A stretch of 14,444 nt of DNA, from NCBI GenBank assembly GCA_900319885.1, contig ONQH01000005.1, positions 1 through 14,444 on the forward strand, written 5' to 3'. Positions 1 to 14,444 of the stretch are shown one piece after another. The number at the start of each line of letters is the position of its first letter. The stretch's first letter is position 1. A model generated the notes under the pieces. That model was not told the origin of the DNA. It ran no database searches and saw only the letters and a list, made by a program, of their open reading frames with translations. This stretch comes from Candidatus Avelusimicrobium ruminicola (GTDB lineage Bacteria; Elusimicrobiota; Elusimicrobia; Elusimicrobiales; Elusimicrobiaceae). Made by a program: the position numbers and the translations under genes.

Positions 1-1
1 G

Positions 2-682
2 GAGTTCAAATCTATCCGCTTAGGGCAAATGGGCGCGGGCATTGACTTTTTGAAAGAGCACGCCGTAACTAAAGTAGTCATGGCGGGACGGGTGCAACAT
101 ACCTCTATCTTTACCAATTTAATGCCTGACAAACGCGGTCTTGCCTTTTTGGCCTCGCTTAAAAATATGCAAGCCAAGCATATTCTTTCCCGTGTGATTG
201 AAGAATGTGCCAAAGAAGGGATCCAATTTCAAAATTCGGCGCTGTTTTTGGAAGAATTTTTCCCCAAAAAAGGCGTGCTATCCAAACGCCAACCTACTGC
301 CGAAGAACAAAAGACCATAGACTATGGTTTCCATATCGCTAAGCAAATGGCCGCGCTGGATATTGGACTGACCTGTGTGGTAAGCCAACAAGTAGTCATT
401 GCGGTGGAAGGGATGGAAGGTACGGACCGCTGTATTGAACGTGCCGGAGAACTTTATAAAAAGTCCGCAGAAAAAGAATCCTGCGTAGCAGTGGTCAAAG
501 TAGCACGCCCCAATCAAGATGACCGGTACGATTTGCCCGTCATTGGGAAAACGACACTCAAACACGTGCATAAAGCCAAATTTGGAATTTTGGCTTTTGA
601 AGCCGGAAAAACCCTGGTGATGGATTTGGAAGAAGTAGTGGAAATGGCCAACAAATTAAATATTTGTTTAGTCGCTATCTAA
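2..682 (+). CDS. lpxI: UDP-2,3-diacylglucosamine pyrophosphatase LpxI, 5'-truncated by window edge
   Basis: LpxI hydrolyses UDP-2,3-diacylglucosamine to 2,3-diacylglucosamine 1-phosphate plus UMP in lipid A synthesis, replacing LpxH in some Gram-negatives. The frame is open from base 2, so the ATG at 29 is internal and the visible part is 226 residues of a family usually about 270-285 long. Family hallmarks seen are the segment around G-Q-M-G-A-G leading to V-V-M-A-G-R-V, the V-E-G-M-E-G-T-D stretch near bases 404-427, and P-N-Q-D-D-R-Y-D-L-P near 509-538, followed by F-E-A-G-K-T-L. These match the DUF1009/LpxI C-terminal domain as I know it. The gene ends just upstream of the tRNA-Leu promoter. 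Its presence implies that the organism makes lipid A. The missing N-terminus cannot be assessed here. Confidence 0.9.
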   Translation, partial: EFKSIRLGQMGAGIDFLKEHAVTKVVMAGRVQHTSIFTNLMPDKRGLAFLASLKNMQAKHILSRVIEECAKEGIQFQNSALFLEEFFPKKGVLSKRQPTAEEQKTIDYGFHIAKQMAALDIGLTCVVSQQVVIAVEGMEGTDRCIERAGELYKKSAEKESCVAVVKVARPNQDDRYDLPVIGKTTLKHVHKAKFGILAFEAGKTLVMDLEEVVEMANKLNICLVAI

Positions 683-708
683 ATTTATCCCAAACAATGC
701 CATAAATA

Positions 709-717
709 TGATATAAT
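709..717 (+). promoter_or_regulatory. Extended -10 promoter for tRNA-Leu
   Basis: TATAAT at 712-717 is a perfect sigma-70-type -10 box, preceded by TG at 709-710 (TG-N-TATAAT, extended -10). No good -35 is present at the usual distance, which extended -10 promoters tolerate. Transcription would begin near 724, about 10 bases before the tRNA. Assigned by motif and position only. Confidence 0.6.
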
Positions 718-733
718 AAATATATCAATTTAA

Positions 734-817
734 GCCGGGGTGCTGGAATTGGTATACAGGATAGTCTCAAAAACTATTGCCCGCACGGGCTTAAGGGTTC
801 AAGTCCCTTCCCCGGTA
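734..817 (+). tRNA. tRNA-Leu (anticodon CAA)
   Basis: A full class II tRNA folds by eye. The acceptor stem is 734-740 with 810-816 (one G-U pair at the end), and A817 is the leucine-type discriminator base. The D arm begins near 743. The anticodon stem ATAGT/ACTAT (761-765, 773-777) encloses the loop CTCAAAA, giving anticodon CAA at 768-770, which reads UUG. The long variable arm has a GCCCG/CGGGC stem (779-790). The T stem AAGGG/CCCTT (793-797, 805-809) encloses TTCAAGT. The 3' CCA is not encoded. The long variable arm and A73 support leucine. Its last 17 bases and its terminator are duplicated downstream. Confidence 0.95.
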
Positions 818-851
818 AAAATATAAACCGCCAAACGGCGGTTTTTTATTT
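801..851 (+). repeat. 51-bp direct repeat, copy 1 (tRNA-Leu 3' end plus terminator)
   Basis: Bases 801-851 are identical to 998-1048 (offset 197). The repeat covers the last 17 bases of tRNA-Leu, the 7-base linker and the whole terminator. Just upstream, AGGG is also shared, but three bases (TTC of the T loop) are absent from copy 2. This copy is part of the intact tRNA gene. Confidence 0.92.
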
Positions 852-852
852 T
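825..852 (+). terminator. Intrinsic terminator of tRNA-Leu
   Basis: AAACCGCC (825-832) pairs with GGCGGTTT (837-844) across the 4-base loop AAAC and runs into a T-rich tract. It lies 8 bases after the tRNA and is a standard Rho-independent terminator. An exact copy lies at 1022-1049. Confidence 0.88.
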
Positions 853-997
853 GAATCGGGGAGCGCATAAACTGCTTTATGCGCGTAAGGGGCTTGAAGC
901 CCGCAGCGATGTTTTTGTTTGAGCGACTAAGGCGCGAAAGGCAAAAACCGCGAGGGCCGGCCCGGAGGCAATTTCCGTAAGAAAATTGACCGCAGGG
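852..997. other. Hairpin-rich segment between the two tRNA-3'-end repeats
   Basis: There is no supported ORF here. The segment holds a dense series of self-complementary elements. GCGCATAAA (863-871) pairs perfectly with TTTATGCGC (876-884) across a 4-base loop. GGGC/GCCC at 890-902 forms a small hairpin. GCG plus GTTTTTG (906-917) pairs with CAAAAAC plus CGC (942-951), with a two-base bulge. GGGCCGGCCC (954-963) is a perfect palindrome. CAATTT (969-974) pairs with AAATTG (983-988). It could be a structured RNA, a palindromic intergenic repeat, or the core of a small element inserted at the tRNA. The strand and whether it is transcribed are unknown. I matched it to no known RNA family. Confidence 0.6.
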
Positions 998-1048
998 AAG
1001 TCCCTTCCCCGGTAAAAATATAAACCGCCAAACGGCGGTTTTTTATTT
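998..1048 (+). repeat. 51-bp direct repeat, copy 2 (orphan tRNA-Leu 3' fragment plus terminator)
   Basis: This is an exact copy of 801-851, lacking the rest of the tRNA. Its 5' flank is AGGG followed directly by AAG, so the T loop has lost TTC and no cloverleaf is possible. It is therefore a tRNA pseudofragment. An integration scar (att-like duplication) or a local segmental duplication would both produce this pattern. Confidence 0.9.
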
Positions 1049-1049
1049 C
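1022..1049 (+). terminator. Duplicated copy of the tRNA-Leu terminator
   Basis: AAACCGCC (1022-1029) and GGCGGTTT (1034-1041) repeat the terminator hairpin of the tRNA, followed by T-rich sequence. It could end transcripts crossing the hairpin-rich segment. It may also back up termination of the minus-strand tlpA-like gene, since its flanks are A/T-rich on both sides. Confidence 0.75.
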
Positions 1050-1051
1050 AC

Positions 1052-1083
1052 AAAAAATATCCCCACCTTACTGGTGGGGATAT
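1052..1083 (-). terminator. Intrinsic terminator of the minus-strand thioredoxin-like gene
   Basis: ATATCCCCACC (1057-1067) and GGTGGGGATAT (1073-1083) form a perfect 11-bp stem with a 5-base loop. Read on the minus strand, the stem is followed by a T run (complement of A1052-A1056), 17 bases after the stop of the minus-strand CDS. It is a strong Rho-independent terminator in that direction. Confidence 0.88.
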
Positions 1084-1099
1084 GATTACTTAATAATTT

Positions 1100-1585
1100 T
1101 TATTTTACCAGTTTGTCAATTTCTACACTGACCACTTCTTCCATATCCGGGCGGTAGCCTTCCCACACTTTAACGGCTTGGTGTTTTTTGTTAAACAAAA
1201 TCGTGTGCGGCAATCCATTTACACCCAGGCCTTCGGCCAATTCCCCGGCATCATATAAGGCTTTGCCCGTAAAACCGTTGGCTTGCATAGCATCATTTAC
1301 CGGTTCCGGGTTTTCATCCATAAAAGCACCTACAATTTCTACTTGGTCACCATATTTTGTCTTCAAGGCAGTTACAGCCGGCATAGTTTTTTTGCACCAC
1401 GGGCACCAAGAACCCATAAACACAACCAATATCGGTTTACCTTGATAATCTTCACTTTGCCACAAGGTAGTCTTGTCCGTTACAACAGGCAGTTGCGTAG
1501 ACGGAAGCGTGACGATTTCCGGCAATTTAGGAAAACACGCCGCCACAAATAAAACCGTACATACTAAGAGTAATATTTTCTTCAT
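1100..1585 (-). CDS. TlpA/ResA-like thioredoxin-fold lipoprotein
   Basis: A periplasmic, lipid-anchored thiol-disulfide oxidoreductase of 161 aa. Residues 1-17 form a lipoprotein signal with lipobox V-A-A-C (lipidated Cys17). The thioredoxin fold follows, with active site W-C-P-W-C (Cys61, Cys64) after the V-V-F-M-G-S strand and the cis-proline loop G-L-P-H (Pro126). Such proteins usually reduce or maintain thiols of envelope proteins, for example in cytochrome c maturation or general redox control. The substrate here is unknown and no cytochrome maturation genes are visible. The start is supported by AAGGAG 7 bases upstream. The gene is monocistronic in this window, has its own strong terminator, and diverges from the M23 peptidase gene 55 bp away. 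Confidence 0.88.
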   Translation of the reverse strand: MKKILLLVCTVLFVAACFPKLPEIVTLPSTQLPVVTDKTTLWQSEDYQGKPILVVFMGSWCPWCKKTMPAVTALKTKYGDQVEIVGAFMDENPEPVNDAMQANGFTGKALYDAGELAEGLGVNGLPHTILFNKKHQAVKVWEGYRPDMEEVVSVEIDKLVK

Positions 1586-1628
1586 AATTTCTCCTTAATT
1601 ATAGTTCCCTCGCAGGTCTATATATGAT

Positions 1629-1657
1629 AGAATACAAAAGATGAGCAATTTTATCAA
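1629..1657 (-). promoter_or_regulatory. Candidate sigma-70 promoter for the tlpA-like gene
   Basis: On the minus strand, TTGATA (complement of 1652-1657) and TATTCT (complement of 1629-1634) are separated by exactly 17 bases. Transcription would start near 1622, leaving a short leader to the ATG at 1585. The -35 lies inside the first codons of the divergent M23 gene. By motif only; a closer TATAAT (complement of 1598-1603) is an alternative -10, though it sits almost on the Shine-Dalgarno. Confidence 0.45.
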
Positions 1658-2561
1658 TACTTTAGCGGGTTTCTTAGGGGAGCGGGTGGACATCCTTGTC
1701 ATGCCGCGCAAAGGAGCCAGTTTTAAGTTCAAATTTCGTCGTATAACCTTACTTGTGGTAGCGCTTGCGTGGCTGCTCATCACGGGCGCCGGGTTACTGT
1801 TTTTTATACGCGGCTATGATTACAACATCCTTAAAACCGATAACAATTTTATGCGTATGAAAATGCAACTCATTGCCGACGAGTTGGAACGTGGCCGCAA
1901 ATACCTGGAACTAACCCGCACCACTGATACCCAGATGCGCCAAATGTTAGGGATGCCGGGCAGCAAATCTATCAACTTACCCAAAGGGTTGGAAGAAGCA
2001 CAGGCCCGCGCCGAACAACACGCCAAAGAACTTTTTGCCACGGACCTTAAGGACTTAGAACCCGAAGAATTTGGAAAATACGTAGATATTTTAGAAGAAA
2101 ACGCCAAAACGCGTTTGGCCAGTTTTCAAGAAATTGCCTGGTATTTTGCCAATAAAAAAGAAGGCCTTAACTCAACCCCTTCCATCCGTCCCTCCAACGC
2201 GCGTATTAGTTCGGGGTACGGATACCGGTTGGATCCGTTTGGGCATCGCACCTCTAAAAAGCACAACGGGGTAGACTTTGCCGGCCTGCCGGATAGTCCT
2301 ATTTTTGTAACGGCGGACGGTGTGGTACGCCATGCCGGTTGGGTTCCCAGTTTTGGCCAGGCTATTTTAGTGGACCACGGGTTTGGCTATTCCACCTTGT
2401 ATGCCCACACGACGGGGATTCAAGTAAAAGCAGGCGATGTGGTCAAACGGGGCGATAAAATTGCTACAATGGGTTCTAGTGGGCATTCTACCGGAACGCA
2501 TTTGCACTATGAAGTGTGGAAAGACGGACAACCGGTCAATCCGCGCAACTATTTTAAGTAA
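1641..2561 (+). CDS. Membrane-anchored M23 (LytM-type) murein endopeptidase
   Basis: A 306-aa zinc peptidase predicted to cut peptide cross-bridges in peptidoglycan from the periplasmic face. One transmembrane helix spans about residues 35-56, followed by a helical, probably coiled-coil linker to about 175. The LytM domain covers about 185-306. The zinc and catalytic residues are all present: H208-x3-D212, H256 in Y-A-H, and H287-x-H289. It should therefore be active, not a degenerate regulator. This ATG is the only in-frame start before an upstream stop at 1602. No clear Shine-Dalgarno precedes it, and a -10-like TAGAAT (1628-1633) lies so close that the mRNA may be nearly leaderless. The bactofilin gene follows after 14 bp, a pairing known from cell-shape loci. 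Confidence 0.92.
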   Translation: MSNFINTLAGFLGERVDILVMPRKGASFKFKFRRITLLVVALAWLLITGAGLLFFIRGYDYNILKTDNNFMRMKMQLIADELERGRKYLELTRTTDTQMRQMLGMPGSKSINLPKGLEEAQARAEQHAKELFATDLKDLEPEEFGKYVDILEENAKTRLASFQEIAWYFANKKEGLNSTPSIRPSNARISSGYGYRLDPFGHRTSKKHNGVDFAGLPDSPIFVTADGVVRHAGWVPSFGQAILVDHGFGYSTLYAHTTGIQVKAGDVVKRGDKIATMGSSGHSTGTHLHYEVWKDGQPVNPRNYFK

Positions 2562-2575
2562 TTTAGGAGGGACTC

Positions 2576-2956
2576 ATGGGATTTTTGAAAAAAGATTCTG
2601 ATTTTGCTTCAGGCGAACATTTTTCCGTTGTGAGTGCGGAATGTTACTTCCAAGGAACATTAAACGTACAAGGCTCCTTGCGGGTAGACGGCACGCTGGA
2701 AGGCTCAGTAGATAATGCCCGGCACGTCATTGTAGGAGATGGCGGCAAAATCGTCGGTGATGTGACCGCTGAGATTGTAGTTTGTGGCGGCACTATTGAA
2801 GGGAATGTATGCGCCGAAATGTTAGAAGTGCTTGGCAAAGCCTCCATCCACGGAGATATACGCGCCAAGAAAATGATTGTAGAAGAAGGTAGTAGCATTG
2901 ACGGGCATTGTACCATCGGGGAAAAACCCGGGGAATTGCCCACAGAAAACAACTAA
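2576..2956 (+). CDS. Bactofilin (BacA/CcmA family cytoskeletal protein)
   Basis: A 126-aa bactofilin, a self-assembling right-handed beta-helix scaffold at the inner face of the membrane. The core (about residues 20-110) shows regular turns with repeated G, V and I spacing, such as G-T-L-N-V-Q-G-S-L-R-V-D-G-T-L-E-G-S-V. Short unstructured tails flank it, ending in a P-G-E-L-P-T-E tail. Length and composition are typical. AGGAGG at 2565-2570 sets the start. Bactofilins commonly lie beside M23 peptidases and localise or regulate them to set cell shape, as described for Helicobacter CcmA and Csd proteins. The neighbouring gene supports that role here, but binding is inferred. Confidence 0.94.
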   Translation: MGFLKKDSDFASGEHFSVVSAECYFQGTLNVQGSLRVDGTLEGSVDNARHVIVGDGGKIVGDVTAEIVVCGGTIEGNVCAEMLEVLGKASIHGDIRAKKMIVEEGSSIDGHCTIGEKPGELPTENN

Positions 2957-2973
2957 TTACGGAGTGAAAAATT

Positions 2974-3654
2974 ATGATTTCGTTTCTTATTAAACATAAA
3001 AAATCTATTCTAATTATTACCCTATTTTTCTTTATTGGCAGTATTGCGTACTTAGGTTTAAGTGCCTATTCGCGCAGTAACGCTTCGTTAACTGCGGCCC
3101 AAGTAGGGAACCAACAAATTTCTTCGCGCGATTTATACCGCTTGGCGGACCAACGTGCTACCCAACTGCGCAACCAAGGCATTGAAGTAGACGAAGATAT
3201 GTTGAAATTTTTACAACAACAGGTTTTATCTTCCATGGTAAGCGAAGAAATCCTTAATCAAGCCGCCCAAAAAGCGGGGTTACACGTGGCTGATTACGAA
3301 GTGGCCTATGATATTAAAACCTCTCCGTGGTTTGCCCCCAATGGCACTTTTGACAAAGCGCAATATGAATATGCGTTGCGTTCTTCCGCTCATACCACGC
3401 CGGCCGAATTTGAAAACCAACTTCGCCGTGATAAACTGGCTAACCGTTTCCGCCAAACGTTGTATTCCCTATATAAATTAACACCTCAAGAGATAAAATG
3501 GGCCTATCAAACCCAACACGGAAATGTAACTGATTTTGACGCAAACAAAAACGACTTTGCCGTCGCCTTGATGGATACCAAGATGGAGACCGCCCAAAAA
3601 GCGTTTTTGGATGATTTCAATAATACTGTAAAAATTCAAACCTTTTTAGACTAA
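2974..3654 (+). CDS. Short SurA_N/PpiD-like membrane-anchored chaperone-type protein without a PPIase domain
   Basis: A 226-aa protein with a cytoplasmic basic N-terminus and one membrane helix at about residues 10-31. It continues with the SurA_N-type helical fold seen at the start of PpiD and SurA: A-A-Q-V-G-N-Q-Q-I-S-S-R-D-L near 41-54, a long amphipathic helix around 75-100, and F-x-x-x-G-x-F-D-K-A-Q-Y-E-Y near 115-133. PpiD and SurA proteins normally continue into parvulin domains. Here the chain stops about 30 residues after the T-P-Q-E-I motif, so no prolyl isomerase activity is expected. It may be a holdase or an assembly partner for envelope proteins. GGAG at 2961-2964 precedes the start. 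It sits between the bactofilin and a PfkB kinase (2-bp gap), implying one operon. Confidence 0.78.
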   Translation: MISFLIKHKKSILIITLFFFIGSIAYLGLSAYSRSNASLTAAQVGNQQISSRDLYRLADQRATQLRNQGIEVDEDMLKFLQQQVLSSMVSEEILNQAAQKAGLHVADYEVAYDIKTSPWFAPNGTFDKAQYEYALRSSAHTTPAEFENQLRRDKLANRFRQTLYSLYKLTPQEIKWAYQTQHGNVTDFDANKNDFAVALMDTKMETAQKAFLDDFNNTVKIQTFLD

Positions 3655-3656
3655 TT

Positions 3657-4571
3657 ATGAATAAAAACGAGGTGCTAGTCATTGGTTCTGTTGCGTTTGA
3701 CACCATTGAAAATGCCAATGGGCGTGCCGAACGTGTATTAGGCGGAGCGGCCAGTTATGCTTCTATTTGCGCCAGTTATTTTGCGCAACCCGAAATTGTT
3801 GCGGTAGTAGGTACAGACTTTACGCAAGAATATCGCGAGCCTTTTATCCGCCGTGGAGTGAACTTGACGGGTCTGGAAGTAAAAAACGGGCTCACGTTTC
3901 ACTGGGGCGGCAGTTATGATGCCGATTTCAACACCGCATTTACCAAGTTTACAGACTTAAATGTATTTAAGGACTTCAAGCCCGTGCTTTCTAAAGAACA
4001 ACAAAACGCCAAATCTGTTTTTTTGGCTAACATTGACCCGGAACTGCAACTTTCCGTATTAAAACAAGTAAAACATCCGCGTTTAGTAGCGTGCGATACC
4101 ATGAACTATTGGATCTCTTCTAAAAAAGAGACGCTACTTAAAGTAATCAAACAAATTGACGTACTCTTTTTGAACGAGAACGAAGCACGGTTGCTTACAG
4201 GGATGTATAACCTCATCCAAGCCGGGAAATGGTTGCTGGGCAAAGGGGTCAAATACGTCATTATTAAATTAGGTTCTAACGGGTCTATGCTGGTAAGTGC
4301 CAAAGGCATTGCCCAGTTACCCCCCTACATTTTAGAACACGTACACGATACCACCGGGGCCGGCGATACCTTTGGGGGCGGCTTTACCGGGTACTTGGCA
4401 AGCCTTAAAAACTGGAACAATATCCACGCCATTAAACGCGCTATGATGATTGGCAACGTAATGGCCTCTTTTACAATTGAGTCCTTTAGCGTGGTGCGCT
4501 TGGCCAGTTTAACACCGGCCATCATCAATAAACGCCTCAAAGAATATACCGATATGCTTCGGTTTGATTAG
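3657..4571 (+). CDS. PfkB/ribokinase-family kinase, substrate unassigned
   Basis: A 304-aa cytoplasmic small-molecule kinase. The N-terminal V-I-G-S-V-A-F-D-T and the G-G-A-A-S-Y-A region (about 29-35) form the substrate side. N-E-N-E-A-R-L-L-T-G (173-182) and D-T-T-G-A-G-D-T-F-G-G-G-F (231-243) are the PfkB signatures, with Asp237 as the catalytic base. The block L-A-N-I-D-P-E-L-Q and D-T-M-N-Y-W-I (about 123-153) marks, in my recollection, a widespread but uncharacterised PfkB subgroup often labelled sugar kinase. The phosphorylated substrate cannot be told from sequence. It starts 2 bp after the preceding stop with no separate Shine-Dalgarno, so translation is probably coupled. No convincing terminator follows in the 54 bp before the convergent gene. 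Confidence 0.87.
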   Translation: MNKNEVLVIGSVAFDTIENANGRAERVLGGAASYASICASYFAQPEIVAVVGTDFTQEYREPFIRRGVNLTGLEVKNGLTFHWGGSYDADFNTAFTKFTDLNVFKDFKPVLSKEQQNAKSVFLANIDPELQLSVLKQVKHPRLVACDTMNYWISSKKETLLKVIKQIDVLFLNENEARLLTGMYNLIQAGKWLLGKGVKYVIIKLGSNGSMLVSAKGIAQLPPYILEHVHDTTGAGDTFGGGFTGYLASLKNWNNIHAIKRAMMIGNVMASFTIESFSVVRLASLTPAIINKRLKEYTDMLRFD

Positions 4572-4625
4572 CCCTTATTTTTCCCGTGCTTTGGGGGATG
4601 CTTTTACAAGGCCCCTACCGTGCAG

Positions 4626-5135
4626 TTACTGCGGAAGAATGTAATGTTTAATCGGGTCTTTGGTAGCATCCCGAAAGGCCGATTGATATACATACACTCT
4701 TCTTTCAAGGATCTTTACGGTGGCCCAGGCCTGCCCACTACGCGCAAAGGAAAAACGGTAGACTGCATCTTCATCTATGGTAGTAAAAGGGACTTCCTGG
4801 TAAGGGTATGATAAGAAATGTACCAAATCCCGCCGGACATCCTTTTGCAAGAAGGGTCCGTCCAATAATACGATAGTATAGGTATTAAATACAGGGCTCT
4901 TATTTAGTGCGTTGGCAATCTCCGGATAAGACTTGGTTTTATTGCCTTTTGAGGGGATGGACAATTCCATTAACCAGGTCCCGCAACGATCTACCATATT
5001 ACAACTTGCAATCTTCTGCATAACGGTCTTATACGCTACAGCCGATTCCCGTACGCCCCCTTTTGCAAGAGAAAACGTACTTGCCGCCAATAAAAGAAAC
5101 ATAACACCCAACACAATTTTTTTAGTTACTTGCAT
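4626..5135 (-). CDS. Exported protein of unknown function
   Basis: A 169-aa protein I do not recognise. Residues 1-24 form a Sec signal peptide (K-K, then a hydrophobic run) with a probable cleavage after S-L-A near residue 23-24. There is no lipobox, so it is likely soluble in the periplasm. The mature part has two cysteines seven residues apart (C-N-M-V-D-R-C) that could form a disulfide, followed by mixed alpha/beta sequence with strands such as Y-T-I-V-L-L and R-V-Y-V-Y. A good Shine-Dalgarno (GGGAGA) lies about 6 bases upstream. It stands alone, convergent with the PfkB gene and divergent from tpiA. The GC content and codon use look similar to its neighbours, perhaps slightly AT-richer. 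Confidence 0.75.
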   Translation of the reverse strand: MQVTKKIVLGVMFLLLAASTFSLAKGGVRESAVAYKTVMQKIASCNMVDRCGTWLMELSIPSKGNKTKSYPEIANALNKSPVFNTYTIVLLDGPFLQKDVRRDLVHFLSYPYQEVPFTTIDEDAVYRFSFARSGQAWATVKILERRVYVYQSAFRDATKDPIKHYILPQ

Positions 5136-5264
5136 AGTATTCTCCCTAATCGTATAGCTAATATTTATAGTTTAATGCCCCGGGATAAGATTTCCAGGGT
5201 ATTTGGTTCTAAAGGGTATTAGGCCCAAAGACCTATACAAATGCGGCATAATGGCACAAGAATA

Positions 5265-5293
5265 TTGTTTTTCGGGCCCTTTTTTGATACTAT
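5265..5293 (+). promoter_or_regulatory. Candidate promoter for tpiA operon
   Basis: TTGTTT (5265-5270) and TACTAT (5288-5293) are separated by 17 bases, giving a start near 5300 and a leader of roughly 50 bases before the tpiA ATG at 5354. Matches are imperfect (4 of 6 in each box), so this is a motif-based suggestion. Confidence 0.4.
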
Positions 5294-5308
5294 GTAGAAG
5301 AGAGTATC
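5286..5308. promoter_or_regulatory. Inverted repeat overlapping the candidate tpiA promoter (possible operator)
   Basis: GATACT (5286-5291) and AGTATC (5303-5308) are perfect inverted half-sites with an 11-base spacer (17 bases centre to centre). The left half overlaps the proposed -10 box. That geometry suits a dimeric repressor, but short inverted repeats arise by chance and no regulator gene is adjacent. Confidence 0.3.
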
Positions 5309-5353
5309 CCGTTATGGGAATCCTATTTAATTTTACTAAGGAAGGGAACTATT

Positions 5354-6106
5354 ATGTCTAGAACACCTATTATTGCCGGAAACTGGAAAATGCACAACAC
5401 GATCGCCGAGGCTACCGCTTTGGTAAACGCGTTGAAACAAGCCGGGAACAAAAATAACGCCGAAATTATTATTGCTCCGTCTTATACAGCCTTAGCCGTA
5501 GCGGCCAACACCGCCAAAGGCAGCGAAATTAAAATTGCAGCCCAAGACGTACATTGGGAAGACAAAGGAGCCTTCACCAGCGCAGTTTCCCCCGTGCAAG
5601 CCAAAGAGGCCGGGGCCACTCACACCATTATCGGCCATAGCGAACGCCGCAGCGTATTTGGAGACACCGACGAAATTTTGAACAAAAAAGTGGCCGCCGC
5701 CTTGCGCCATAACTTAACGGTTATCTTCTGTGTAGGGGAAACCTTAGCCGAACGCGAAGCCAACAAAACCTTAGACGTAATTTCCGCTCAGTTAGAAAAT
5801 GGCCTCAAAGGCTTTACCGCCGAACAATTAAAAGGCTTAGTGATTGCTTATGAACCCGTGTGGGCCATTGGTACCGGCAAAACTGCCACGCCCGATCAAG
5901 CCCAAGAAGTACACGCGGCAATCCGTGCCCAACTAGCCAAAACTTATGGGGACGCTTTTGCACAGGCCACCCGCATCCTCTACGGAGGCAGTGTAAAAGA
6001 TACCAACGTAGATGAAATTATGGCTAAACCCGATGTGGATGGCGCCTTAGTGGGCGGTCAGTCCCTCATCGCTGAGAAATTTGCCCGTATTATTAACTTC
6101 AACTAA
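5354..6106 (+). CDS. tpiA: Triosephosphate isomerase
   Basis: Interconverts dihydroxyacetone phosphate and glyceraldehyde 3-phosphate in glycolysis and gluconeogenesis; cytoplasmic TIM barrel, usually a dimer. The 250-aa length is standard. All key residues are present: Asn10 and Lys12 in A-G-N-W-K-M, His95 in I-I-G-H-S-E-R-R, Glu167 in A-Y-E-P-V-W, and the flexible loop-6 sequence W-A-I-G-T-G-K-T-A (170-178). The phosphate-binding G-G-S (211-213) and G-A-L-V-G-G (230-235) also match. A purine-rich Shine-Dalgarno (AAGGAAGGGA, about 5338-5347) supports this start. It is the first gene of a tight plus-strand run; deoC follows after 2 bp. Confidence 0.98.
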
Positions 6107-6108
6107 TT

Positions 6109-6753
6109 ATGAATATTGCTAAATATATTGACCATACGCTTTTGAAACCCGCCGCCACACAAGCACAAATTGCCAAATTGTGTGACGAAGCACGCCAATA
6201 TGGCTTTTGCAGTGTTTGCGTAAACCCCTACTGGGTTCCTTTTGCCAAAAAAGCCCTACAAGGCAGCGGCGTAAAAGTGTGCACCGTCATTGGCTTTGCC
6301 TTAGGTGCTAGCACGGCAGCCGCAAAAGCATTTGAAACCAAAGATGCTATTGCCAACGGAGCGGATGAAGTAGATATGGTCATTAACATGGGAGCCTTAA
6401 AATCCGGCGACACCCAAACGGTACTGGCGGATATTCAAGCCGTACGCGATGCTTCCCGTGGGCATATTTTGAAAGTAATTATTGAAACTTCACAATTAAC
6501 CGATGAAGAAAAAGTAACCGCTTGCGAACTGGCCGCCAAGGCCGGGGCGGACTTTGTAAAAACCTCCACAGGGTTTAACGGAGGTGGGGCAACCGTACAG
6601 GATGTAGCGCTTATGCGCAAATCCATCCCGGCTGCCATGCAAGTAAAAGCATCCGGCGGCGTACGCTCACGCGCCGATGCAGATGCTATGATTGCTGCTG
6701 GGGCCACCCGCATTGGTACCAGTGGCGGGGTACAAATCGTTGAAAACAAATGA
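6109..6753 (+). CDS. deoC: Deoxyribose-phosphate aldolase
   Basis: Class I aldolase that splits 2-deoxyribose 5-phosphate into acetaldehyde and glyceraldehyde 3-phosphate, in deoxynucleoside salvage; cytoplasmic. The 214-aa length fits the short DeoC type. Seen are the N-terminal Y-I-D-H-T-L-L-K-P, the E-V-D-M-V-I-N strand with catalytic Asp89, the Schiff-base Lys151 in F-V-K-T-S-T-G-F, and Lys180 in V-K-A-S-G-G. The start is 2 bp after the tpiA stop. The bases around it (ACTAATTATGAATA) are identical to those at the PfkB gene start, suggesting termination-reinitiation coupling without a strong Shine-Dalgarno. The product glyceraldehyde 3-phosphate feeds TpiA. Its stop overlaps the next gene's start (ATGA). 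Confidence 0.97.
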
Positions 6754-9329
6754 TTGAAAATTGGGAAATTAACAATTGGATAGATCAAAAAACCGGTACC
6801 GTCCACTACACACTGTTAATGGACGGTACGGATACGGATGCCCGTTTGATGGCTAAAAAATTAAAGGGCTACGTACAAGAGACAAATGCCGCCGCGGCAC
6901 CCTATACATATGCTTTTTCGCTGCCAAACGACATGGATGAAAACACCCAGGAACAAATCCGCGTGGCTGTGCAAGAAATGGTGTCAAACTCTAAACAAAT
7001 AGATGACTTGGTACCGGGTGGAAATTTGGGCGATCCTTTATTTAATACCTCTCCCAATAGACAGGTGGATTTAGCGGCGGCAGAGTCGGCTGAATTGGGC
7101 CTACAAAAAAGGACCGTTGCTCCCCAGCAAGATGTTGCCGCCACCCCCGAACAGCCAGACAATGTAAAAATAGAAAAGCAAACCGTATCTGCAGACACCC
7201 AAACGCCCAGCACCATTTCTATTAGTGATAACGACATGCTCATTAAAGATATGGAAGGCTCCGTATTGGAGAAAATGCCCATTGAAGATATTTTGTCGGC
7301 AGAAACGAAATATGATATGTTTGTGGAACTGGAACAAACCCCCGGAAAAACCCAGCAAGTACAGCAAAGTAAGGACCAAAAAATAACCGGAGCACAACCT
7401 TCGTCCACCAGTTCTTTCAATGTATTTGACCACGAACTCAAAGAACAAACCAGCATTATTGATTTGGAAGACGTACAAACCATTACAGATAGACTTTCTA
7501 AAAAAGACACTAATTTTATGAACAATACAAATCCTCCTCACAATGACGAAAAAAACCCCTCGGCCGCTCCGCAAACGGATACGGACGCTTCCGCTACCTC
7601 CAGCACGCCTTTTACCTTAGGGGCCGCGCAAGAGCCGCCCAAAACCATGATGGAGGAATTTTCATCGGAAACCCCGTTAGAGGAGGAACAACTGTTGGCC
7701 GACACCGTCCCTCCGCAAGACGAGCATGCAGCCGAAGATTTGCCTGAAATTACGGTACGTCAGCAAATAGACAAATTAGATAAAACTTTCAATTTGGAAA
7801 CCACCTTTAATACGGAATTTTTGAAACAACAAGGCGAAAAAACACGCTCTCTGCGGGAAGGGAAACAGCCAGAGCCGGCCCCTGTAGAACAAGAGCCGCC
7901 GCATACCAGAACCATTTTACGTCTTAAAAAACACACACCGCCCACGCCGCCCAGCCCGGAATTGCCAGAGGCCGGCAAAACGATTTTGCGTTTGAGACGT
8001 AAAAATAATGCCCCGCAGACCCCGGCACAGACCCCGAAAACCTTGCGTAGTACTGTGTCCCCGGCGCATGCTACCCCGAAACAAAAGGGGATTGACCACT
8101 CTATTCAAATTCCCACATCGGAATTGAAAAAACACAACTGGCCTTTGGAAGTACCCTTAGTGCCCACCTATACGCTTAGCAATATGGTGATGTCGGTAAA
8201 CCGCTTTGCCCATGCCACTGCTGTTTCCGTGATTGAAAACCCCGGGAAACTGTATAACCCCCTAGTTCTACACGGCGGTACAGGCACCGGCAAAACGCAT
8301 TTCTTAAATGCACTGGCTTATGCTTTTAGCAAAAAATTTGGTCAAGAACATATCTTTATGACTAACGGGGTACGCCTTTCGCGCGGGATTCAACGCTATG
8401 TCATGGAAGGCAACATTGATAAATTTGAAAAGTTTATGCAGTCTGTACAAGCGCTGTTAATTGATGACGTGCACTTGCTTGCCATTAACGAACAGAACCG
8501 CGCTTATATCTCCAAACTGCTTAACGATTTTTTGCATGCGCAAAAACAAATCGTTATCACGTCTAAATATCCGCCGGAAAGCCTGGAAAAATTGGAAGAA
8601 CTCATCCAATTTAAATTGGATTCCGGCTGGATTAGCGAATTAAAACCGGCCACCGGGGCCACGCATTTCCGCATTGTCAAAAAGATGCTCTTTGAAAACG
8701 GCGTAGACCTTACGGATAAGCAAATTGAGGAATTTTTCAGTTCCCCGCACATGACGTTGGGTACGGTTACGCGCAGTATCCGCCGGTTAAAAGTGTTGGA
8801 AAATTTAATTTTCCCCGGATTACCCGAAAACCAAAAATCTCAAGCCGGGATTTTTGAGAAATTACTGGCCACAAAAGGGGAAGATAACACGAGCGAACTG
8901 CTTAACAAAGATCCGTCTGAAATCACCACGCTCAATATGTCCGGCAATGGCGAGTGGGGCCGCATTGGCTTCTTCTACCCGCAAAACTGCTCCGACATGA
9001 TGAATTGGATGGTTTACGCACTGGACCAACGCGCCAAGGAGTTGCATATTGAAGGCGGCTTTGAAATTGTGGTACGCTCTTCGTACGCTACGGAAAACAT
9101 TATTTCGTCCGCTTTCAAAATTGCCAACTTGTGTGACAACAAAAAATTGAAAGGCGCGGTGATTTTAGGGCCTAAACCTAATTCTTGCGACCCCTCCGTA
9201 CGGGAGAATTTCTACGATATTCTCACCCACATGTTGGAAATTATGCTCATTCGCTGCGGCATTATCAACTACGAAGATGTCCGCTTGCCAAGCACCTACG
9301 TAAAAGTGCTTTCCGAACTGATGAGGTAA
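6750..9329 (+). CDS. DnaA-domain-III-like AAA+ ATPase with long disordered N-terminus and novel C-terminal domain
   Basis: An 859-aa protein. Residues 1 to about 85 may form a small folded domain. About 86-465 are low-complexity (P, Q, T, E rich), with a repeated T-I-L-R-L plus basic motif at 388-394 and 411-417. About 470-690 match DnaA domain III: N-R-F-A-H-A (484-489), N-P-x-K-x-Y-N-P-L, Walker A G-G-T-G-T-G-K-T (509-516), Walker B L-L-I-D-D-V-H (569-575) and sensor I I-V-I-T-S (601-605). By my alignment the arginine-finger position of DnaA is Lys622 and the sensor-II arginine is Gly671, so ATP turnover or oligomer activation may be altered. DnaA's DNA-binding domain IV is absent; about 700-859 is a domain I do not recognise. 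It is not the replication initiator. ATGA overlap with deoC; lipoprotein genes follow after 2 bp. Function unknown. Confidence 0.85.
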
Positions 9330-9331
9330 CT

Positions 9332-9781
9332 ATGAAGAAAATTCTTGCGCTGTTAGTGTGTATCCCCTTGTTTGCCGCCTGCGGCAAAACCCTAAAATCG
9401 GCCGTAAAAGAGGGCAAGATTGCCCCCTCTTTTAACGATACGCTTTTGGATGACGACTACTTGTGGGTACGCGGATTTGGAGCCGCCAACCCCAAGCATC
9501 AAACGGACTCCCAACGCCGCATTTTAAGCCGCGAAGCCGCTATTGCCCATGCTTATCAGCGTGCTACGGAGGTGTTGTACGGGGCCGAGTTGCAGTCTCA
9601 CGTACAAATTGTGGATGCTACGACGGTGGGTAGCACCGTGGACACGTCCGCTACAGGCGTACTAAAACGCATGGAACTTATCCAAACAGAATATTTAGAC
9701 GACGGCGGATGCGCGGTAATCATGCGCCTTAGCCGCAGTTATTTACAAGAAATCGGTTTAGACCCCAAGGAGGCCAAATGA
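9332..9781 (+). CDS. LPP20/FlgP-like lipoprotein
   Basis: A 149-aa lipoprotein. The correct start is the ATG at 9332, after G-A-T-G-A-G-G at 9320-9326. An upstream in-frame ATG at 9185 would bury the lipobox and overlap the ATPase gene. The signal ends with F-A-A-C (lipidated Cys17). The rest resembles the LPP20 fold: W-V-R-G-F-G-A (45-51), a helix with S-R-E-A-A-I-A-H-A-Y-Q-R-A (67-79), and paired strands ending D-D-G-G-C-A-V-I-M-R-L (123-133). Related proteins include Helicobacter LPP20 and the flagellar outer-membrane lipoprotein FlgP. No flagellar gene is visible here, so an envelope role separate from motility is likely. It overlaps the next lipoprotein gene by ATGA. Confidence 0.8.
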   Translation: MKKILALLVCIPLFAACGKTLKSAVKEGKIAPSFNDTLLDDDYLWVRGFGAANPKHQTDSQRRILSREAAIAHAYQRATEVLYGAELQSHVQIVDATTVGSTVDTSATGVLKRMELIQTEYLDDGGCAVIMRLSRSYLQEIGLDPKEAK

Positions 9782-10884
9782 AAAAATTACTGATTTGTTT
9801 ATTAAGTGCATTGGTCCTAGCCAGTGCTTGCTCTTCTATTCGTATCGGCCCCAAAGGGGAAGGCGAATATGTAACGGCGGAATCACTCGTCCCGTATGAT
9901 GAACGCAACTTGCGCCAAATGAAAAAAGACGGTGAATTGGCCGCCCAAAAAGCCGCTGTGGAAAAAGTAGCCGGCGTATTTATTTCGTCCGCCACTACCG
10001 TGGAACAAGCCCAGTTGGTAGAAGATAAAATCACCTCCAAAACGGCCGGCTTTATCCGCAAATCGCACGTACAAAAATCCTACCGCAAAGGGGATGAATG
10101 GTACACCAAAATTAAAGCCATGGTGCTCGTCAAAGACATTGGAGCCATTATTAAACAATCCGAAGAAAATGCCTTTGCCAAAAAAACTACCGTTTTAGTT
10201 ACCTCACGCGAAACGGTAGGGGAAGAAATTTCCCTCACGCAAGATTGCAAACAGGCCATCTACCGCGTACTCAAGGAACAACCTTACAATTTAGTAAACG
10301 GGGATAATTTAAGTCAAAACAATATTGAAAACCCGAACCCCACGATTGATAAAGCGCGCACAGAAGGGGCCCGCTTTGTCATTGTGGCGGATGTAGAAGC
10401 CAACCCGTTAGCCTCTTTGCCGGGGGCCACCTCTGCCTTCAAATCTTACCGGGCACGCGCCAAAATGAACGCTTATGCCACCAACAATTATGCCGTGGTA
10501 GCGGAAGGAGCCCAACAACAAAGCGGCTTAGACCCGTTGGATACGATTGCCGCCAAAAAATCTATTTCCGCGGCGTGTGAAGCAGCTGCCAAACAACTGG
10601 TAGAGCCTATTAACGACGCTATCAATTCCGCCAAAATCTACAACGTTACGATTAAAAATATCAATACGATTGAACGCCTTAAACAAGTCCAAGATATTTT
10701 GCGCACCTTGCGCGAAATTGAAGACTTTAATTTAGTGCGCTATGCCAACTCGGCGGCCCAGTTTGAAATTTCGGCCAATATTGCCACGCCCGAAGAACTC
10801 ACCGCCAAGATGATCCGTAAATACAATATTTACTTTACGGTTGTTAGCATTACGCCCAACGCGGTTGTTTTGAGTTTTAATTAA
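9778..10884 (+). CDS. FlgT-like multidomain lipoprotein
   Basis: A 368-aa lipoprotein with lipobox A-S-A-C (Cys18). An N-terminal region (about 54-125) has the LPP20/FlgT_N pattern: a long Ala-rich helix, then a strand pair around S-Y-R-K-G-D-E-W-Y-T-K-I-K. The middle (about 137-280) has T-V-L-V-T-S and G-A-R-F-V-I-V-A-D-V and resembles the TolB-N/FlgT-middle or CsgG-like type. A C-terminal domain (about 285-368) begins V-T-I-K-N-I and could be ferredoxin-like. FlgT builds the H ring around the flagellar motor in Vibrio, next to FlgO and FlgP; the order LPP20-like then FlgT-like echoes that. AAGGAGG at 9767-9773 precedes the start, which overlaps the previous stop (ATGA). Family assignment is by pattern, and the function is unproven. 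Confidence 0.65.
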   Translation: MKKLLICLLSALVLASACSSIRIGPKGEGEYVTAESLVPYDERNLRQMKKDGELAAQKAAVEKVAGVFISSATTVEQAQLVEDKITSKTAGFIRKSHVQKSYRKGDEWYTKIKAMVLVKDIGAIIKQSEENAFAKKTTVLVTSRETVGEEISLTQDCKQAIYRVLKEQPYNLVNGDNLSQNNIENPNPTIDKARTEGARFVIVADVEANPLASLPGATSAFKSYRARAKMNAYATNNYAVVAEGAQQQSGLDPLDTIAAKKSISAACEAAAKQLVEPINDAINSAKIYNVTIKNINTIERLKQVQDILRTLREIEDFNLVRYANSAAQFEISANIATPEELTAKMIRKYNIYFTVVSITPNAVVLSFN

Positions 10885-10885
10885 C

Positions 10886-12424
10886 ATGCTTGCCAACGCA
10901 ACTGCCGCCACCATTAAAGGCATTGAGGGATTTGCGGTGTCCGTGGAAGTGGACATCGCCCCCGGTTTGCCTAATTTGGCGGTGGTAGGCCTGCCGGATG
11001 CAGAAGTTAAAGAAAGTAAAGAACGTGTCACAGCCGCTATCCGCAATAGCGGTTTTGATTTTCCGTTAAAACGTATTACCGTTAATTTAAGCCCGGCAGA
11101 ACTACGCAAAAGCGGGACTCAATTTGATTTACCTATTGCCCTAGGCATTTTGGCCGCCAGCGAGCAAATTTCCGCGCTGGCGCGTGAAAAAATAAACAAT
11201 CTCTTGGTGCTGGGGGAACTGGCTTTGGACGGCTCGTTACGGCCATGCGCCGGCGTTTTACCCATGCTGATTTCTTGCAAAAATTTAGGAAAAACCGCCG
11301 TCATCCCCCCCGCTAATGCGCTGGAAGGGCAAATTTCTTCGGCCCCGTTTATTACGCCGCATACGCTACGGGAACTGACCGACTATTTAGAAGAAAAAAT
11401 CCCGCTTAGTGCCGTGCAACTGGCTTACGTTCCCCCCACAGAGCAGGAAACTCAACCCTTATTAGATTTTAATGAAGTCAAAGGCCAAGCCTTGGCCAAA
11501 CGTGCGCTGGAAATTGCCGCGGCCGGCGGACATAATGTACTAATGATCGGCTTGCCCGGCACCGGCAAAAGCATGCTAGCCAAACGTTTCCCGGGGATTT
11601 TACCGCCTTTAACGGAAGATGAATCGCTGGAAATTACCAAAATTTATTCTATTTGCAATCTCTTGGGGAAAAGCCGCCTTTTGACGACGCGCCCCTTCCG
11701 CGATCCGCACCACACCATTTCCAACGTGGCCCTCATTGGCGGCGGTTCCACCCCCAAACCCGGGGAAGTATCATTAGCCCATAACGGGGTCCTCTTTTTA
11801 GATGAATTTGCCGAATTTTCCCGTAGCGCCTTAGAGGTGTTGCGTGAACCGTTAGAAAACGGACAAGTAACCATTTCGCGCGCCAAAGAAACGGTTTCGT
11901 ACCCGGCCCGCTTTACGTTGGTAGCCGCCATGAACCCCTGTCCGTGCGGCAATTTGGGCAACCCCCTTAAACCCTGCACTTGTTCCCCCATGCAGGTCAC
12001 GCGCTACAAAAACCGTATTTCAGGGCCACTACTAGACCGTATTGACTTAACCGTCAACTTAAATCCTGTCAAATTTACCGATTGGAAACAAGAGAAGGAA
12101 GGAGAGTCTTCCGCACAAATCCGTCAACGTGTTTTAGCCGCGCGGGAAATCCAAAAAGCACGCTTTACGGGTACTCCCACCACCGCCAACGCCTTTATGA
12201 CGCCCGCGCAAATTAAACAATTTTGTCAGTTACCGCCCGGGGCCGATACCATTTTAGAGGCCGCCATGCGGCGCTTTGGCCTAAGTGCGCGTAGTTTAGA
12301 TAAAATTTTGAAAACCGCCCGCACAATTGCTGACCTGGAAGGCAAAAGCGCTATAGAAACTAAACACCTGGTGGAAGTGATGCAATATCGCCCGCTGGAC
12401 CGTAAAGGAGTGGCCGATCTATGA
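10886..12424 (+). CDS. comM: ComM/YifB-family Mg-chelatase-like AAA+ helicase
   Basis: ComM is a hexameric helicase that promotes branch migration when transformed DNA recombines with the chromosome. The 512-aa length is typical. Order: Lon-protease-like ChlI N-domain (about 1-170, with the family start V-E-V-D-I-A-P-G-L-P and L-S-P-A-E-L-R-K-S-G), AAA+ Mg-chelatase core with Walker A G-L-P-G-T-G-K-S (222-229) and Walker B L-F-L-D-E (303-307). A P-C-P-C-G...P-C-T-C insertion follows (Cys352, 354, 364, 366; probable zinc site), then a C-terminal Mg_chelatase_C helical domain (about 415-505). It starts 1 bp after the FlgT-like stop and overlaps dprA by ATGA. Linkage to dprA supports a role in natural transformation or general recombination. 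Confidence 0.94.
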   Translation: MLANATAATIKGIEGFAVSVEVDIAPGLPNLAVVGLPDAEVKESKERVTAAIRNSGFDFPLKRITVNLSPAELRKSGTQFDLPIALGILAASEQISALAREKINNLLVLGELALDGSLRPCAGVLPMLISCKNLGKTAVIPPANALEGQISSAPFITPHTLRELTDYLEEKIPLSAVQLAYVPPTEQETQPLLDFNEVKGQALAKRALEIAAAGGHNVLMIGLPGTGKSMLAKRFPGILPPLTEDESLEITKIYSICNLLGKSRLLTTRPFRDPHHTISNVALIGGGSTPKPGEVSLAHNGVLFLDEFAEFSRSALEVLREPLENGQVTISRAKETVSYPARFTLVAAMNPCPCGNLGNPLKPCTCSPMQVTRYKNRISGPLLDRIDLTVNLNPVKFTDWKQEKEGESSAQIRQRVLAAREIQKARFTGTPTTANAFMTPAQIKQFCQLPPGADTILEAAMRRFGLSARSLDKILKTARTIADLEGKSAIETKHLVEVMQYRPLDRKGVADL

Positions 12425-13557
12425 ACGCAGCCATCCGCGCCGAGGAACGTTTGGCACGCATCCGCTTAAATGCGTTTTTGTATTTCCGCGCAGATTGGCT
12501 GGCTAGGCTATTAGAAATTTTTGGCTCTGCCCAAGAGATTTTAAGGCAAGATGCCCAAACGCTAGCACGCGAGGCCAACTTAAACCCTTCCACCGCGGCT
12601 AATTTACTCAAAGAAGCATTCTCTATCAATCCCCAAGAAGAGTGGGATAAGACCGAACAAATAGGCGGGCACATTTATATACCGGAAGATGAAGAATATC
12701 CCCAGGCACTTCGCAACTGCAAAGAGGCTCCCATTGCTATTTATGTATTAGGAAAACTACCCGCCGCCCAACAAGCGTGCGTAGGCTTGGTGGGCACGCG
12801 TAAAATTACCCCCTACGGCCGGCGCGTGGCCGCCAAATTGGCCGGTGAACTGGCCCAAGCGGGCGTGGTAGTAGTCAGCGGCTTGGCCCGCGGTATTGAC
12901 AGCGAGTGTCACGCGGCCTGCGTGCGCGCCAAAAAACCCACAGTGGGGGTCATAGGGACCGGAATCGGGCGATGTTATCCCCCGGAAAACCGCGCTCTAG
13001 AAAAAGCCATTTTGGAACACGGAGGAGCCGTTTTAAGTGAACTACCGTTTAATAAACCGCCCAATGCCTTTCATTTTCCGCGCCGCAACCGCTTAATTGC
13101 GGCTTTATCACAACCGGTAGTGGTCATAGAAGGGGAAGTAAAATCCGGTGCGTTGATTACTGCCAAACTTGCTTTAGAACAGGGAAAAGACGTTTTAGCC
13201 GTCCCCGGGCCTATTGACAGCCTACAATCGGGAGGGCCCAATTCTCTTCTTACACAGGGGGCGGGGGTTGTAACTTGCGTCGCGGATATTTTAGAATATA
13301 TACCACAGGCACAACGTTTTGGGTTGGAGGCGCGTTTCTTTGAACATACCGCGCAAACCCCAGCCAAACCGGAAGAAACCCTTTCCGCCCGCGAACAACA
13401 AGTCATGCACGCGGTAGCGGATGGGCAACTGAGTTTGGATCAAATAGCCTTGGCTATTGAGGCTGATGTGCCCGAAGCCGCCGAACTTCTATTTAATTTA
13501 GAAGTCAAAGGCTTCTTAGCCTGTGAAAACGGGTTATACAGTAAAAGCAAATTTTAA
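12421..13557 (+). CDS. dprA: DNA-processing protein DprA
   Basis: DprA binds incoming single-stranded DNA and loads RecA during transformation. The 378-aa protein has an N-terminal helical, helix-hairpin-helix/SAM-like region (about 1-70) and the Rossmann-type DprA fold (about 82-295). The Rossmann fold shows V-G-T-R-K-I-T-P-Y-G (124-133), S-G-L-A-R-G-I-D (153-160), F-P-R-R-N-R-L-I-A (219-227) and S-G-A-L-I-T-A-K-L-A (242-251). A C-terminal winged-helix domain (DprA_WH) runs from about 315 to 378. All typical motifs are intact. The start overlaps the comM stop by 4 bp (ATGA). No com pilus genes are visible in this window, so competence itself is an inference; DprA and ComM also occur in species not shown to be competent. 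Confidence 0.96.
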   Translation: MNAAIRAEERLARIRLNAFLYFRADWLARLLEIFGSAQEILRQDAQTLAREANLNPSTAANLLKEAFSINPQEEWDKTEQIGGHIYIPEDEEYPQALRNCKEAPIAIYVLGKLPAAQQACVGLVGTRKITPYGRRVAAKLAGELAQAGVVVVSGLARGIDSECHAACVRAKKPTVGVIGTGIGRCYPPENRALEKAILEHGGAVLSELPFNKPPNAFHFPRRNRLIAALSQPVVVIEGEVKSGALITAKLALEQGKDVLAVPGPIDSLQSGGPNSLLTQGAGVVTCVADILEYIPQAQRFGLEARFFEHTAQTPAKPEETLSAREQQVMHAVADGQLSLDQIALAIEADVPEAAELLFNLEVKGFLACENGLYSKSKF

Positions 13558-13577
13558 CTTTATAAGGAAGTGATACT

Positions 13578-14444
13578 ATGGCAGCAAAAGGTAAAAAACT
13601 AGTGATTGTGGAGTCTCCCACCAAGCAAAAAACCATTAGCAAAATCTTAGGAAATGATTTTATTGTGCGTAGTTCGTTTGGTCACGTGCGCGATTTGCCC
13701 CAACATGATATGGGCGTAGATATAGAGCACGGGTTTACCCCCACCTATGAACCGGTGGAACGCGCCAAACGCCTTATTAGCGAACTAAGTACCCTTGCCA
13801 AAAACGCCCCTGAGATTTACCTGGCTACCGACCCTGACCGCGAGGGCGAAGCCATCGCGTGGCACTTGATTGAATTATTAAAATTACCCAAAGAACGCTA
13901 CCAACGTATCTTCTTTCACGAAATTACCCCCACTGCCATTAAAGAATCCTTTGCCCATGCGCGCAAAATTGATGAGAACTTGGTCAACGCCCAGCAAGCC
14001 CGGCGCGTACTGGACCGTATTGTAGGGTATAAACTTTCTCCTCTCTTGTGGAAAAAAATTACCCGCGGCTTATCAGCAGGACGCGTGCAATCGGTAGCGG
14101 TGCGCTTGTTAGCCGAACGTGCCAAAGAAATTGCCGCTTTTAAGGAGCAAGAATACTGGACGATTGGCGCCCAATTTGAAAAAGAAGGCACTGCCCCTTC
14201 GTTTTGGGCCCGCGTCACCAAATATAAGGGTAAAAATGTGGAGCAAACCAAAACCCACAAACTTTTTGCGGAAGATTACAAAGTAAAAACTACCGTTTTT
14301 GACGCGCCCGAGAAACTGGCTCCCGTATCCGATCTGCTACGCAAAGGGCCTAATACCGTCGTAAAAGTAGAGAAAAAAGAGGTAAAACAACACCCCAAAC
14401 CGCCTTTTATTACCAGCACCTTGCAACAGGATGCCTACAATAAA
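13578..14444 (+). CDS. topA: DNA topoisomerase I, 3'-truncated by window edge
   Basis: Type IA topoisomerase that relaxes negative supercoils behind transcription and replication. The first 289 residues are present and the frame is open to the last base. The TOPRIM domain includes Glu12 in V-I-V-E-S-P-T-K and the metal-binding D-x-D-x-E at Asp85, Asp87 and Glu89 (T-D-P-D-R-E-G-E). The next conserved block is L-S-A-G-R-V-Q-S-V-A-V-R-L-L (165-178). P-P-F-I-T-S-T-L-Q-Q-D-A (275-286) is the segment just before the catalytic tyrosine, which lies beyond the window. AAGGAAG at 13564-13570 sets the start. The dprA-topA order with a 20-bp gap is a widespread arrangement. A full protein would be 700-900 residues. 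Confidence 0.97.
   Translation, partial: MAAKGKKLVIVESPTKQKTISKILGNDFIVRSSFGHVRDLPQHDMGVDIEHGFTPTYEPVERAKRLISELSTLAKNAPEIYLATDPDREGEAIAWHLIELLKLPKERYQRIFFHEITPTAIKESFAHARKIDENLVNAQQARRVLDRIVGYKLSPLLWKKITRGLSAGRVQSVAVRLLAERAKEIAAFKEQEYWTIGAQFEKEGTAPSFWARVTKYKGKNVEQTKTHKLFAEDYKVKTTVFDAPEKLAPVSDLLRKGPNTVVKVEKKEVKQHPKPPFITSTLQQDAYNK

Follow-up and report, generated by a model that had tools for sequence, protein, structure and literature searches.

Few bacterial proteins are as conserved as the initiator DnaA, and to our knowledge its known derivatives (Hda and the loaders) all stay within DNA metabolism. Hda inactivates DnaA by stimulating the hydrolysis of DnaA-ATP with the clamp and is not known to have an arm or extra domains, and the loaders DnaC, DnaI and IstB have other partners and another gene context than the protein described here. 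This protein is encoded in a stretch of 14,444 nucleotides from Candidatus Avelusimicrobium ruminicola of the Elusimicrobiaceae (phylum Elusimicrobiota; assembly GCA_900319885.1, contig ONQH01000005.1, positions 1 to 14,444 of the forward strand), which is called the window below. Its gene lies at 6750..9329 on the plus strand and is an open reading frame (ORF) of 859 aa with an ATG start. We use DnaAL as our own name for this DnaA-core paralogue family of the Elusimicrobiota, for which no description was found in the literature searched. Like the DnaA initiator, DnaAL has an AAA+ domain III that contains the Walker A and B motifs, and like Hda/HdaA it is a DnaA-derived AAA+ core without domain IV. 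Unlike DnaA, it has two new domains, a long arm and another gene context. DnaAL is a new architecture among DnaA-derived AAA+ proteins, and we see about an even chance that it is a nucleotide-binding switch or scaffold in the control of type IV pili, and not in initiation.

The ATG of DnaAL overlaps the stop codon of deoC by ATGA, with the start inside the stop codon. The DnaAL ORF is not a chance ORF, since an orthologue-level match was present in all 41 genomes compared (its own and 40 relatives), with 4e-64 as the weakest of the best E values. The core resembles DnaA, as an earlier sequence-only reading of the window had proposed: Pfam Bac_DnaA covers residues 472-627 (E 8e-31), and the whole AAA+ core, corresponding to DnaA domain III, occupies residues 468-708 (8151..8873, plus strand). 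Neither domain IV (PF08299) nor domain I (PF11638) was detected in DnaAL by Pfam at E <= 1. The window DnaAL scored 139.4 bits against a cut-off of 343.9 for the NCBIfam DnaA equivalog, and 47.7 bits against 194.8 for the Hda equivalog TIGR03420, a model of only 226 positions; it also scored below the cut-offs of the DnaC, DnaI and IstB loaders.

The region before the core had been described as about 460 mostly low-complexity residues. This applies to residues 101-455 (7050..8114, plus strand), an arm of low hydrophobicity (21% hydrophobic residues, and 46% P/Q/T/E/S) that is probably disordered, judging from its composition. It does not apply to the first 100 residues (6750..7049, plus strand), which form an N-terminal domain (N-domain) conserved throughout the phylum by alignment. 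The N-domain had no Pfam match, was negative in a PDB profile search, and compared with DnaA domain I at an hhalign Prob of 0.9%. Among the other DnaALs read, 88-1227 aa precede the core; the exception is L095, which has 12 aa there and no N-domain. Behind the core, the same reading had seen domain IV replaced by about 150 unrecognised residues. Domain IV is indeed absent, but the stretch consists of a linker of about 25 aa and a folded alpha/beta domain of 126 aa (C-domain, residues 734-859; 8949..9326, plus strand). The structure prediction gave beta-alpha-beta-alpha-beta-alpha-beta-alpha at a pLDDT of 94.1. The expectation that the C-terminus would not fold as domain IV was borne out, because the predicted fold is alpha/beta and not helical, and hhalign against domain IV gave a Prob of 0.1%.

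The genome also encodes a separate full-length DnaA, as a pre-set check on the sequence-only reading confirmed: the assembly of the window (1.20 Mb, 83% complete) contains a second PF00308 gene, L001, with domains I, III and IV. DnaAL is therefore a paralogue and not the initiator. The notion that DnaAL is the working DnaA of the organism with a divergent DNA-binding end, which has the strong domain III match in its favor, is refuted by this second gene and by the alpha/beta fold of the C-domain; the arginine finger and sensor II are degenerate as well, and we regard it as next to impossible. In a tree of the cores, 62 DnaAL rows and 20 canonical DnaA rows of the phylum were split by one branch with a support of 100/99, and E. 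coli DnaA was placed on the canonical side. The 62 rows include L228 and L229, which were fetched as canonical and turned out to be DnaALs without the N-domain (they stand outside the 60-row counts given below), whereas L210, first taken as a DnaAL, turned out to be a canonical DnaA and was left out. This topology fits one old split between DnaAL and DnaA and not a recent convergence, with an uncertain point of origin given a single outgroup and long branches flagged by the program.

A profile of the C-domain matched 94 of the 149 genomes of the phylum. The matches comprised 94 of the 98 genomes outside a family-level group designated f16, which we take to be probably the Endomicrobia, and none of the 51 within it. 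The core profile together with the loci read gave the same 94 genomes, and the four genomes outside f16 without DnaAL were G042, G043, G053 and G203. The N-domain profile matched 66 of 99 genomes; its 33 misses were 29 f16 genomes plus G042, G043, G044 and G141, the last two of which have a DnaAL without the N-domain. The genome collection holds at least 80 loci, and the 80 listed were titled either Elusimicrobiota or 'bacterium' without a phylum name. One DnaAL without domain IV, L216 (4985-6835), reached 361.8 bits, above the cut-off of the NCBIfam DnaA equivalog (343.9), and genomes may therefore be annotated with two initiators. Separately, the assembly GWC2_61_19 contains two DnaAL-like loci, L108 and L140, of which the second is 450 aa long and divergent.

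The active site of the core was compared between 60 DnaAL rows and the 20 canonical DnaA rows, using the residue numbers of E. coli DnaA. Walker A (8274..8300, residues 509-517) and Walker B (LLIDDVH; 8454..8474, residues 569-575) are both on the plus strand of the window, and Lys178 of the former and Asp235 of the latter are present in 60/60 DnaAL rows. The residues R281, R285 and R334, of which we take R285 to be the arginine finger and R334 sensor II, are all present in 20/20 canonical DnaAs but are retained together in 22/60 DnaAL rows (19 outer-class loci and L093-L095). The window DnaAL has lost all three: Leu and Lys stand at the positions of R281 and R285 in a degenerate box VII (FKLDSGW; 8610..8630, plus strand), and Gly replaces R334 in a degenerate sensor II region (8748..8789, plus strand). 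Judged from these residues, it appears that the ancestor was able to assemble and that ring-type ATP sensing was later lost in the lineage of the window, with the nucleotide pocket retained. The tree and these losses support the earlier suggestion that a DnaA core was repurposed. The series from finger-intact to finger-lost forms also provides natural material for testing what DnaA-type assembly needs. At the ssDNA (single-stranded DNA) position R245, Ser was found in 19/19 outer-class DnaALs, and the window has Gln; this position is uninformative because 14 of the 20 canonical rows, including the DnaA of the window genome itself, also have no Arg there (6/20 retain it).

These data bear on whether DnaAL regulates replication, as an AAA+ protein of the Hda or loader type that acts on DnaA or DnaB. 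The likeness to Hda noted above speaks for such a role, but the Hda and loader models stay far under their cut-offs, and the lineage of the window no longer has the arginine finger. Moreover, none of the neighbors read was recognised as a replication-initiation gene (topA is close in the window), and the C-domain is absent from 51/51 f16 genomes, which indicates that replication in the phylum can do without DnaAL. We consider this role quite unlikely.

The C-domain had been called novel. Its sequence is indeed new, but its fold is a known one: the prediction shares the MID fold of Argonaute/PIWI proteins over 116 of 126 residues at 2.1 A, with 5-17% identity, and Argonaute/PIWI entries made up 50/50 VIA rows among the matches listed, many of them the same proteins. 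Against the MID domain of prokaryotic Argonaute (pAgo), hhalign gave P 0.018 and a Prob of 2.5%, a score that was reached by 1 of 200 column shuffles. Unlike Argonaute, DnaAL combines this fold with no detectable PIWI domain (PF02171; none in DnaAL at E <= 1 and none in its genome, which is 83% complete). The lysines that hold the 5'-phosphate in MID look absent from the C-domain in a hand alignment. Elsewhere in the phylum, G021, a genome of the window's genus, encodes a partner ORF followed by a short prokaryotic Argonaute (L277:1033-3463), and Piwi-family matches occurred in 2 of 198 genomes, one of them above the cut-off.

The gene neighborhood was counted at 60 DnaAL loci, on the same strand and within set distances; where a locus reaches a contig end (e.g., L052, L079 and L091), a missing neighbor means little. 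A PilT gene, designated pilT2, is located upstream of DnaAL at 26/60 loci, and a protein with an N- or C-domain like those of DnaAL (sister protein) is encoded upstream at 32/60, the profile for the latter having been built from such neighboring proteins. A kinase-type gene follows at 33/60 loci (GAF, HisKA and HATPase domains were tested in two). This count omits L083, L085 and L089, whose kinase ORFs failed the overlap limit, and its match at L215 is by eye a GAF-type protein without the kinase end. The linkage of DnaAL with these partners recurs in many families. Outside the order of the window, PilT2 stands beside DnaAL at 26/37 loci and the kinase at 23/37.

The linked PilTs form a clade of their own. 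In a quick tree, 26 linked PilTs were separated from 22 others with 99 in the SH-aLRT (Shimodaira-Hasegawa-like approximate likelihood ratio test), and the scores of the PilT2 profile were bimodal, with one gene of at least 522 bits in each of 28/149 genomes and all other matches at 475 bits or less. The 28 genomes all belong to the 94 with DnaAL; pilT2 is on the DnaAL contig in 26 of them, one pair lies at the ends of different contigs, and one is unlinked. The C-domains of DnaAL and the sister proteins are homologous (hhalign Prob 98.5%, E 2e-15), and the N-domain is also present in some sister proteins. By eye, a helical-looking motif, approximately D-L-x-x-I-L-x-x-L, opens many sister proteins (e.g., L218:7637-8614 and L041:8552-10756), and several DnaALs have a similar stretch behind the N-domain. 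At one locus a CheY-like receiver comes after the kinase, and at another, next to pilT, the N-domain occurs on a Pfam-tested GGDEF protein of 477 aa (L227:2551-3984). A similar 477-aa protein was seen in a second genome on another contig (L274:147-1580).

A retraction motor, a sensor kinase, a receiver and a diguanylate cyclase are neighbors typical of surface-pilus control, and we therefore propose a switch or scaffold for pilus retraction. In the proposed task and in the types of partner (PilT, kinase, receiver, GGDEF), DnaAL would resemble the type IV pilus regulators FimX, SgmX and PilG/PilH, none of which is known to be built on a DnaA core. The same neighbors could instead make DnaAL an output of the sensor kinase that acts on transcription or a second messenger and not on pili. 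The kinase-type gene directly downstream at the 33 loci and the GGDEF protein with the same N-domain agree with this idea; yet no DNA-binding domain was found in DnaAL, and outside the window's order PilT2 is the more frequent companion (26/37 versus 23/37), which makes it decidedly unlikely. Another candidate partner is the deoC microcompartment, whose shells, encoded next door, the module might place or regulate. deoC lies upstream in the window and at many outer-class loci, and small ORFs near it look by eye like shell genes (L273:3343-3687, L275:3566-3859, L080:2745-3107). However, the shell label is by eye, no shell gene was recognised beside the window DnaAL, and at the outer-class loci having both genes PilT2 is the nearer neighbor because it sits between deoC and DnaAL. 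A role in organising microcompartments is thus far-fetched.

The architecture, the paralogy, the residue losses and the gene linkage are observed, and from them we infer nucleotide binding, assembly and the partners of the proposed pilus switch or scaffold as follows. DnaAL is an ancient paralogue of initiator DnaA that lost domains I and IV and gained the N-domain and the MID-fold C-domain. The ancestral form, which had an intact arginine finger and sensor II, would assemble through its core, driven by ATP, and so bring its arms and end domains together. Sister proteins would join this assembly, with the shared end domains as connectors, and the whole would surround PilT2, the dedicated ATPase for retraction, under the control of the GAF histidine kinase. 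In the lineage of the window, DnaAL may persist as a scaffold that is nucleotide-bound and whose flexible arm is enlarged. For the gut Elusimicrobiaceae a scaffold is likelier than a motor, because no partner is encoded at the locus and the protein has a longer arm and no finger. If the proposal holds, DnaAL is an initiator engine co-opted for cell-surface control and spread over most of the phylum. A fuller version, which we think rather unlikely, is that the initiator AAA+ engine and a domain that either descends from Argonaute MID or converged on its fold became the core of a phylum-specific machine, in which DnaA-type assembly driven by ATP, together with a small-molecule or nucleotide signal at the MID-like domain, sets the time and place of retraction by the dedicated PilT, and which decayed to a nucleotide-bound scaffold in the gut Elusimicrobiaceae.

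Several observations weigh against a role in pilus control. Because the loci share ancestry, the counts are not independent, and deoC and by-eye microcompartment shell genes are among the neighbors too. PilT was above its cut-off in 115 genomes, including all four genomes outside f16 that lack DnaAL and 17/51 of f16, and pili in general therefore do not depend on DnaAL. In the family of the window, PilT2, the sister gene and the kinase are each beside DnaAL at 0/11 loci, and the kinase query of family f2 gave only kinase-core matches in 11/11 genomes of this family (up to 150 bits versus 1430 for itself); the pilus link there is thus by ancestry only. The window genome has a general PilT above the cut-off (477.7 bits), but PilB and PilQ are below their curated cut-offs, which were reached by 0/14 and 1/14 controls, respectively; its PilB match begins at a contig end. 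In an excerpt of PMC11257099, the isolates of the phylum are described as non-motile, and retraction may therefore serve DNA uptake or adhesion instead. An excerpt of PMC8809381 places competence and pilin genes in Endomicrobium. This genus would be without DnaAL if f16 corresponds to the Endomicrobia.

The window itself has the order deoC, DnaAL, two lipoprotein genes, comM, dprA and topA. deoC (6109..6753, plus strand), an upstream neighbor in other classes as well, was named by Pfam, and the others were named by eye from the sequence. The presence of comM and dprA would fit a competence factor, with DnaAL handling incoming ssDNA during pilus-driven uptake, its core gripping ssDNA and the MID-like domain holding the 5' end, before ComM and DprA take over. 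The two gene families recur (comM at 28/41 loci and dprA at 16/41), a pilus-retraction ATPase is linked at other loci, and the fold of the C-domain is that of a nucleotide-binding domain. On the other hand, comM had no match in 20 outer-class stretches, the V211 position is Gln in the window DnaAL but Ile or Val in 20/20 canonical rows, and the MID lysines look absent in the hand alignment. On balance, we judge a competence factor unlikely.

Lipoprotein 1 (9332..9781, plus strand) has 149 aa from its ATG, the listed ORF of 198 aa starting from an upstream TTG. Lipoprotein 2 (9778..10884, plus strand; 368 aa) was likewise assigned by eye, with LPAM_1 below its cut-off. They had prompted a hint of an envelope or localisation link in the sequence-only reading. 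The hint retains some basis, as the lipoprotein 2 family occurs at 24/41 loci including the window, but the stronger links, to PilT, the sensor kinase and the sister proteins, are found elsewhere; they were not visible to that reading because they are not beside DnaAL in the window's family. Further upstream, a 226-aa protein at 2974-3654 matches nothing but SurA-type N-terminal domains and stops shortly behind them. It belongs to a gene group at 1641-4571 (an M23 peptidase, a bactofilin, the SurA-like protein and an ORF that is sugar-kinase-like by eye) that was seen at 1 of the 40 other loci read.
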